Shown here: piece by piece, positions 9,460 to 10,906 of the stretch
Layout of the letters: each line of letters begins with the position of its first letter
How positions within the stretch are numbered: position 1 is the stretch's first letter
Source: Deltaproteobacteria bacterium
GTDB taxonomy: Bacteria; Desulfobacterota; Desulfomonilia; Desulfomonilales; Desulfomonilaceae
Direction of reading: 5' to 3'
DNA: 37,175 nucleotides
NCBI GenBank assembly: GCA_016875095.1
Contig: VGSG01000037.1
Location: forward strand, 1-37,175
Notes under the pieces: generated by a model
Database searches by the model: none
Seen by the model: only the letters and a program-made list of their open reading frames with translations
Told to the model about the DNA's origin: nothing
Position numbers and translations under genes: made by a program

Positions 9460-9538
9460 AAATCCCCTCCGCCCCTCTTCCGGAAAGGGAGGCGCCTAAC
9501 GCGTTTCCCCTTTTCCAAGGGGGGCGCCGGGGGATTTT
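9460..9538. repeat. Inverted-repeat element, AAATCC(Y)CCC family
   Basis: This is a second copy of the element seen at 3736-3816. The tips are AAATCCCCTCC and GGGGGATTT in inverted orientation, with internal GGAGGCGCC and GGGGCGCC blocks. It sits directly after the FabG-like gene and could act as a transcript-stabilising or terminating structure. Confidence 0.65.
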
Positions 9539-9626
9539 CAAAGCGATAAATCCCGGCGAGCGCCGGTCAAGTTTTTTTTCGCTCCCGGATGACTGTAAGG
9601 CATACGGCGGAGCGCGAAAAAAAACG

Positions 9627-9889
9627 TTGACTTGCCTGCGGCCATTTGATAGAGAATTCGTACTAAGCAACGTGGATCGTAGATTGGTTTGAGAGATTCG
9701 GGTAGTCCCGGGAGGGACTCCCTGAAGAAGCGGTGTCTTGGGGAGCGGTTGGACCGAGGAAGACCCAGCCGGACTTTGAGAGACGCTGTTGGCTAGGGAG
9801 TCAGGCAAAAAATAGCTTGACATTTCGCAGGTGATTTGTTACCAAAGAATACATTCCGGACTATATGGTTGTTTTCCGGGAATGTTTTT
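9627..9889 (+). ncRNA. Candidate structured RNA or leader with attenuator-like end
   Basis: A possible promoter is TTGACT (9627-9632) with TAGAGA (9650-9655) at 17 bp. The following RNA can form hairpin A, 9700-9709 with 9714-9722 (GGGA loop, one bulge). Alternatively it can form an 8-bp long-range stem of 9716-9723 (GACTCCCT) with 9795-9802 (AGGGAGTC). The two are mutually exclusive. Inside the long-range stem are a hairpin at 9735-9764 and a 4-bp stem at 9767-9770/9791-9794, giving a three-way junction. A stem at 9851-9859/9876-9885 followed by five T residues looks like a weak terminator. I recognise no known RNA family. It may be a small RNA or a regulatory leader of the gene at 9943. Confidence 0.35.
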
Positions 9890-9942
9890 ACGGGGCTCCC
9901 GACCACAAATCGGGAGGAACTGTTGAAAGGAGGATTGAGGGT

Positions 9943-10428
9943 ATGGTTAAACGCTTGGTTCTTTTGAGCCTTTTAGTTCTCGCGCTGTGCGGCGCCAGCA
10001 CACTGGTATCTTTTGCCGGTGGGGCTCCCGGTGGCGCTGCCTACATGCCGCCTCCGGGCCCTCCGTGTGTTGGCGGCCCAGCATCTTCAAAGTATTCCGT
10101 AGTGAGAGAGACGATTACGCCGGTTCCGGCCCAGCTCAGGAAAGTGAGAGTCGTTGCTCCTTACCTGGCGGGGATCGCGTGGCCGCGTACCCCTCTACCA
10201 TTCCTTACCAACCCGCAGGCTTGGCCCACTCCCGTCGCTCCTGGTCGCTATGAGTGGCTGGTTCCTGTGACAGGCATCGAGAAAGAGCACTTCTGGAAGC
10301 TCGCTGGTCCCTGCTGCAAGACCGTGGACGTGCCGCGCTGCGTGTACGTGAAGGCGAACTATGTGAAGCCCAAGTGCGGGCCTATGCCCTGTCCGCCTCC
10401 GCCCATGCCGATGAAGGTGAAGAAGTAA
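9943..10428 (+). CDS. Exported Pro/Cys-rich protein, unknown function
   Basis: This 161-residue protein starts with a clear Sec signal peptide (M-V-K-R, a Leu-rich core, then A-G-G near residue 26). The mature part is rich in Pro and Gly, has six Cys (as P-P-C-V-G, P-C-C-K, R-C-V and K-C-x3-P-C) and ends in a Pro-rich, Lys-rich tail. The ATG at 9943 has GAAAGGAGGA before it. A longer in-frame start at 9865 would put the signal sequence inside the protein, so I reject it. It is paired with the similar gene at 10497: the two share the ribosome-binding sequence almost exactly and the C-V-G motif. I recognise no family. Periplasmic or surface location and disulphide bonding are inference. Confidence 0.7.
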   Translation: MVKRLVLLSLLVLALCGASTLVSFAGGAPGGAAYMPPPGPPCVGGPASSKYSVVRETITPVPAQLRKVRVVAPYLAGIAWPRTPLPFLTNPQAWPTPVAPGRYEWLVPVTGIEKEHFWKLAGPCCKTVDVPRCVYVKANYVKPKCGPMPCPPPPMPMKVKK

Positions 10429-10496
10429 GGGCTGTGTGAGAAAAACCAGTTTAGAGAACTACGATATAATGATTTTTGCGAAAGGAGGATGAGGGT

Positions 10497-10853
10497 ATGG
10501 TCAAGAAGCTAGCAATTCTCGGATTCATCCTGGTCGCCGTGGCTGCGGCGGGCATGGTATGGGCCGGGACTGAGACGGGGACGGTAGCCGCTCCCCAACC
10601 GACGGTTATGCCGGCCTCTGCTCCAGCGTGTGTTGGCGTGGCTTGTCCGCCGATGAAGATGGTTTCACCCAAAGTGAAAGCCAAACCCAAGCAGATGACC
10701 ACCAGCATTCAAGTGAATATGCAGTTTCCTCAGCCGCAGATGCCGCCGTGTGTCGGGCCGATGTGTGGACCGCCCCCCATTCCTGTTGCGGTTCCCATGT
10801 GGAAGTTCATCGTTCCTTGGCCGCCGTTTGTGTATTATCTGCCGGTTGAGTAA
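10497..10853 (+). CDS. Exported Pro/Cys-rich protein with two CVGxxC motifs
   Basis: This 118-residue protein has a signal peptide (M-V-K-K, hydrophobic core, W-A-G near residue 22). The mature part is about one-fifth Pro and carries its four Cys as two C-V-G-x-x-C units (near residues 43-48 and 83-88). Met is also frequent, often as P-M or M-x-P, which might suit metal or copper contact, but this is only a suggestion. The start context GAAAGGAGGATGAGGGT then ATG is nearly identical to that of the gene at 9943, so the two are probably diverged duplicates. A perfect TATAAT lies at 10465-10470 without a good -35 box. The strong terminator at 10878-10906 closes the unit. I recognise no family. 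Confidence 0.68.
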   Translation: MVKKLAILGFILVAVAAAGMVWAGTETGTVAAPQPTVMPASAPACVGVACPPMKMVSPKVKAKPKQMTTSIQVNMQFPQPQMPPCVGPMCGPPPIPVAVPMWKFIVPWPPFVYYLPVE

Positions 10854-10877: not shown

Positions 10878-10906
10878 AAAAAAAGCCCCCGAGAGGGGGC
10901 TTTTTT
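10878..10906. terminator. Bidirectional Rho-independent terminator
   Basis: Seven A residues, a perfect GCCCCC/GGGGGC stem (10885-10890 with 10895-10900), a GAGA tetraloop and six T residues form a textbook terminator usable in both directions. It ends the exported-peptide transcript only 21 bp before the hisA start. Confidence 0.9.

Follow-up and report, generated by a model that had tools for sequence, protein, structure and literature searches.

What is the region that precedes two small exported-type protein genes in a member of the Desulfomonilaceae, and what does it do for them? The window, one entire contig of 37,175 nucleotides from a 4.7-Mb genome, carries ahead of these genes a region (9627-9942) that a preliminary description, made from the letters alone, had taken for a long structured leader with mutually exclusive stems, resembling a riboswitch, an attenuator or a small RNA. 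Comparison with relatives shows that this region is a conserved, structured RNA leader of a make specific to the Desulfomonilaceae lineage, and as such it documents a conserved lineage-specific element in a little-studied family. Judging by its layout, its most likely role is to keep the mRNA stable and well translated. We give an even chance to the fuller reading, in which a two-promoter structured 5' leader secures high, steady output of a Desulfomonilaceae-specific operon for two small exported proteins.

The comparison rests on a DNA search that matched the locus in 17 of 60 genomes (the window's own included), all of them from the Desulfomonilaceae (family f1). A profile search found gene 1 as a single copy in 17 of the 18 genomes of the family, the only one without it being G009, which is 82% complete. 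Gene 2 adjoins gene 1 in 17 genomes and was matched in 2 of 297 genomes of the phylum, both from this family. Common to all 17 loci, and aligned there, are two promoter-like blocks (P1 and P2), a hairpin (H1) 4-5 nt past the P2 -10 box, a second hairpin (H2) and the ribosome-binding site (Table 1). In the alignment of the 17 upstream regions, the part of the leader that follows P2 has a mean column identity of 88%. Both this shared arrangement and the fixed spacing between the P2 -10 hexamer and H1 argue for a high-output leader.

Table 1. Features of the leader and its operon (positions in the window)
Feature	Position	Strand	Basis or detail
Promoter P1 (putative)	9627..9655	+	-35 TTGACT 9627-9632, 17-nt spacer, -10 TAGAGA 9650-9655
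Fast-evolving structured P1-P2 interval	9662..9816	+	Fold z-scores; genus g5 consensus fold
Hairpin SL0 (predicted)	9662..9688	+	Computed fold
Local hairpin SL-A	9697..9726	+	9704-9709/9714-9719 plus 9697-9702/9721-9726
Long hairpin SL-B	9729..9790	+	Computed fold
Long-range partner of 9716-9723	9795..9802	+	8-bp match in window genome only
H0 inverted repeat GTCAGGC / GCTTGAC	9800..9821	+	Right arm overlaps P2 -35 box
Promoter P2 (putative)	9817..9845	+	-35 TTGACA 9817-9822, 17-nt spacer, -10 TACCAA 9840-9845
H1 hairpin, then TTTTT	9851..9889	+	At inferred P2 start site
H2 hairpin	9896..9916	+	9 nt upstream of Shine-Dalgarno sequence
Shared translation start AAAGGAGGATTGAGGGTATGGTTAA	9926..9950	+	Recurrent pattern
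Gene 1, 161-aa protein, signal-peptide-like N-terminus	9943..10428	+	
Gene 2, 118-aa protein, signal-peptide-like N-terminus	10497..10853	+	
Intrinsic terminator of operon	10885..10906	+	GCCCCC..GGGGGC, T6

The P1 block consists of an A-tract, TTGACT, 17 nucleotides of any kind and TGnTA, which align across all 17 genomes, and the P2 block of an A-tract, TTGACA, 17 nucleotides and TGnTACCAA, likewise kept in all 17. It is this conservation that suggests that both are promoters, with transcription from P1 estimated to start near 9661. Against a high-output leader, their -10 boxes match TATAAT poorly, and the strict rule of a simple consensus scan gave no sigma-70-type promoter. The inverted repeat H0, which runs into the P2 -35 box, scores at least 5.5 of 7 in 15 of the 17 genomes, with 7-10 nt between its arms in those 15; in its left arm, A and G alternate at two positions that lie opposite U. 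The position of H0 and H1, both on a promoter, together with the nearly invariant arms of H1, raises the thought that they are not RNA hairpins but DNA operators, inverted repeats bound by a repressor at the P2 -35 box and start site. We regard this as improbable: the spacing of the arms varies (the H1 loop measures 16-19 nt, and the H0 spacing 7-10 nt), and the change from A to G in the left arm of H0 preserves pairing in RNA but breaks the palindrome in DNA.

The terminator-like hairpin with five T residues noted earlier at 9851-9889 is present in the sequence; a terminator scan did not list it because the loop limit of that scan is 8. Since H1 begins 4 nt past the P2 -10 hexamer in 16 genomes and 5 nt past it in the window, the first nucleotides of P2 transcripts are expected to fall within its 5' arm, provided that the start site lies where the hexamer would place it. 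The arms of H1 are almost invariant across the 17 genomes; because they hardly vary, they are neutral evidence on covariation, and the high-output reading accordingly draws no covariation from H1 itself. H2, a perfect 7-bp hairpin before the ribosome-binding site as had been described, is different in kind: among 15 distinct sequences, four of its pairs have changed on both sides with pairing kept, as many as in 0 of 500 shuffles. Moreover, the consensus fold of the leader downstream of P2 reaches -22.0 kcal/mol against -9.6 ± 2.6 for column-shuffled alignments (z -4.75, equalled by 0 of 200), which favours a high-output leader, and in alignment A1 the paired cells, the doubly changed pairs and the covariation score were each reached by 0 of 500 shuffles, the number of pair types by 27 of 500.

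The T-run behind H1 invites a second interpretation, namely that H1 and its T-run form a partial intrinsic terminator at which P1 transcripts stop, giving a multi-hairpin small RNA of about 230 nt, while P2 transcripts, starting inside the H1 arm, are read through or attenuated. A stability hairpin would have no need of a T-run, whereas a terminator is expected to have one. H1 has a folding energy of -7.5 to -12.1 kcal/mol, precedes 5-7 T in 15 of the 17 genomes and keeps a fixed position shortly after P2, and the P1-P2 interval ahead of it is structured. On the other hand, the T-run is broken in G010 (TTGTC) and G001 (TTTTC), the loop of H1 is large or its stem carries a 9-nt bulge, and the interval lacks the conserved sequence expected of a base-pairing small RNA and matches the shared translation start no better than shuffles do. 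Known transcription attenuators with intrinsic terminators likewise have a hairpin and T-run in the leader, but here no conserved antiterminator partner was found, and the run of T is not kept in every genome. Taken as a whole, termination at H1 with a small RNA from P1 is a doubtful but serious possibility, and it keeps this standing because 15 of 17 genomes preserve five or more T after the hairpin.

The P1-P2 interval measures 134-167 nt in the relatives, which have little sequence in common there, and yet it is structured. The entire region 9627-9942 folds better than dinucleotide shuffles (z -3.25), as does 9655-9815 (z -3.29). In 17 of 17 genomes the minimum free energy of the interval has a z-score below 0 (-0.82 to -2.85, mean -1.70); 68 control segments taken from these loci average -0.44 (Mann-Whitney p 1.3e-5; p 2.7e-4 with one value per genus). 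Within genus g5 (seven sequences) the consensus fold of the interval is -23.3 against -8.4 ± 2.6, a z-score of -5.8 matched by 0 of 200 column shuffles. Five pairs in this genus, located in two local hairpins, have changed on both sides; five such pairs were reached by 23 of 500 shuffles, the covariation score by 1 of 500 and the number of pair types by 152 of 500, counts that are not to be read as probabilities because the seven genomes are closely related. Two of these pairs belong to a local hairpin at the place of SL-A and three to the counterpart of SL-B; the g5 counterpart of SL0 shows none. Other groupings gave less, with consensus-fold z-scores of -3.6 for two g6 sequences, -1.2 for the same two plus G006, -0.2 for four further genera and -1.1 for the window plus G001, and thus the folds specific to the window's own genus are predictions. 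The 17 intervals of the whole family are unalignable, with a consensus energy of 0. Several familiar roles for the interval were also considered and rejected. Open frames occur in it, and by eye none is common across genera as a leader peptide would be; a match antisense to the shared translation start that at most 5 of 100 shuffles reached was seen in 0 of 17 loci; the interval of L010, the one locus read for this purpose, contains no GGA of the kind sought for a CsrB-like small RNA; and the sole match of the window's genome to the 6S RNA family (RF00013) lies elsewhere, at G000:C67:5237-5418.

The most striking proposal of the preliminary description concerned a switch in this interval. Its starting point is sound: 9716-9723 (GACTCCCT) is complementary over its full 8 nt to 9795-9802 (AGGGAGTC), and it also pairs locally, as part of the hairpin 9697-9726. 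The long-range match was equalled by 1 of 200 shuffles, and the two folds are near balance, the winner varying with the length of the stretch folded: the long-range stem has a mean p of 0.87 when 9661-9815 is folded, whereas with 9661-9942 the inner local stem has a mean p of 0.91 and the long-range stem 0.39. Both observations could favour a riboswitch whose expression platform is an exchange among the 9700s, 9716-9723 and 9795-9802. However, the three-way junction that the long-range stem was said to close does not appear in the minimum-free-energy fold, where this stem surrounds a single hairpin (9729-9790) to form a rod with an internal loop. More decisively, mutually exclusive stems fail as a conserved device, for the partner is kept by 0 of 16 relatives, in each of which the complementary run in the interval for the segment homologous to 9795-9802 was equalled by at least 50 of 200 shuffles. 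Hence the comparison lends no support to a conserved switch or riboswitch, and the alternative pairing appears to be private to the window genome, as far as the compared genomes show. In addition, the 17 intervals share no conserved core, their alignment yields no consensus fold, and a model built from genus g5 matches other genera weakly (at most 19.1 bits, mostly in the 3' tail). No Rfam family reached its gathering score in the window, and a permissive E-value brought up nothing credible in the leader; among the titles listed for papers on noncoding RNA or riboswitches in Desulfomonile, none looked relevant. A riboswitch is therefore disfavoured and, in our estimate, very improbable. The claim of a long, structured and conserved leader stands, carried by the compensatory changes in H2 and, in one genus, by those in an upstream part of about 150 nt; a bistable fold that looks attractive in a single genome may not survive comparison even where the region as such proves to be structured.

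A wider context is given by the translation start, in which AAAGGAGG begins at 9926 and the ATG at 9943. The pattern AAAGGAGG-N2-5-GGGTATGGTNAA has 70 occurrences in 17 of the 18 genomes of the family, and a reversed control pattern has 0; across the phylum it is found in 2 of 297 genomes, both from this family, and in 0 of the 295 others. These shared starts precede small exported-type proteins. At the 37 sites examined beyond genes 1 and 2, the frames open with MVK, an opening almost forced by the search pattern itself, and continue, judged by eye, with the kind of hydrophobic segment that exported proteins typically have. In the window's own genome, three further genes have the shared start, at L167 (G000:C63:19529-21477) and L151 (G000:C5:58802-60025); their products are small exported-type proteins with no Pfam match.

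The leaders of these sites were aligned as C-first (14), C-second (6) and D (15), with L152 and L153 left out. All three classes carry the A-tract/TTGAC promoter, and the C-first leaders appear to have tandem promoters too. Their consensus folds beat 297 of 300 (C-first, z -2.6), 299 of 300 (C-second, z -3.6) and 300 of 300 shuffles (D, z -3.7), with 0, 2 and 1 doubly changed pairs, respectively. For C-second and D the consensus shows a hairpin that, like H2, directly precedes the ribosome-binding site; C-first yields a branched structure, whose end lies a short way ahead of this site and which includes pairs with the site itself. That other genes with the same start show a comparable promoter and a predicted structure before the ribosome-binding site supports a high-output leader, and the C-first leaders have no T-run after their promoter-proximal structure, so a leader element fits better than a terminator. 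The likeness has its limits, as the C-first consensus is not a simple hairpin and has no double change among 22 pairs, and in class D no hairpin stands out close to the promoter. In the C-first consensus fold (L154-L167), a promoter-proximal CATCC pairs with GGATG of the Shine-Dalgarno region, a modelled pairing that may possibly exert translational control.

One start design before several small exported-type proteins without a match in the family libraries searched may point to abundant or co-regulated envelope proteins. Co-regulation could take the form of a trans-acting regulator, an RNA-binding protein or small RNA that reads the shared start and nearby structure and coordinates about five exported-protein genes. 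The 70 near-identical starts in 17 genomes, with their empty controls, would suit such a regulator, and so would structure before the ribosome-binding site in all four leader alignments tested, those of the present leader and of C-first, C-second and D. The region before gene 2 has the shared start too. The same pattern is explained by selection for output acting on a strong start site, the hairpin sequences differ between leaders and no candidate can be named, and we consider a regulator of this kind unlikely. Similarly unlikely, as a combination, is a family-specific post-transcriptional regulon in which about five exported-protein mRNAs per genome, with a near-invariant 24-25-nt start and upstream structure, come under joint control by an RNA or protein acting in trans, and P1 gives rise to a structured RNA of its own, about 230 nt long and ending at H1.

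For the two-promoter, high-output leader, the observed layout suggests the following mechanism. Transcripts from P2 would have their first nucleotide at the 5' arm of H1 or inside it, such that the mRNA opens with a 5'-terminal stem-loop, which in turn would hinder 5'-end-dependent decay. H2, immediately upstream of the strong, near-invariant Shine-Dalgarno/start region, would insulate that region and keep it accessible. P1 would supply a longer transcript, whose extra 190 nt or so are probably folded by local hairpins that keep their pairing while their sequence changes fast. Reviews of known systems offer parallels: bla mRNA is made more stable by a 5' hairpin that impedes RppH (PMC3997798), ompA mRNA is stabilised by elements of its 5'-UTR (PMC2777011), and genes for S-layer proteins combine strong promoters with long-lived mRNAs (PMC8056022). 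The 5'-terminal stem-loop leaders of ompA and papA in Escherichia coli and aprE in Bacillus subtilis have a hairpin at the 5' end, as is predicted for the present one, and structure before the ribosome-binding site. By analogy, a 5'-terminal stem-loop may stabilise the mRNA of this operon as well. The comparison is one of working principle only, for the leader described here differs in its unrelated sequence, the T-run after H1, the two promoters and the fast-evolving array of upstream hairpins. S-layer genes express exported proteins strongly through strong promoters and long-lived mRNA, as is proposed here, but the proteins of genes 1 and 2 have no Pfam or NCBIfam match or confident fold, and the likeness to S-layer genes lies in the proposed mode of expression.

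Both proteins were searched against Pfam and NCBIfam at E <= 1, with no match, and the gene 1 protein has no sequence match in the PDB; its AlphaFold2 model (pLDDT 42) is too poor for fold comparison. A GC-rich hairpin follows gene 2 across the 17 loci, of which L021 ends early at a contig end. In all 17 genomes the gap between genes 1 and 2 (10429-10496) keeps the motif [G/A]ATATA[A/G]TG a short distance ahead of the ribosome-binding site; no -35 box is obvious with it, and it may serve as a -10 element, as a site of processing or as an enhancer of translation. Farther upstream, 9500-9564 is part of a dispersed GC-rich repeat with eight other matching places in the genome.
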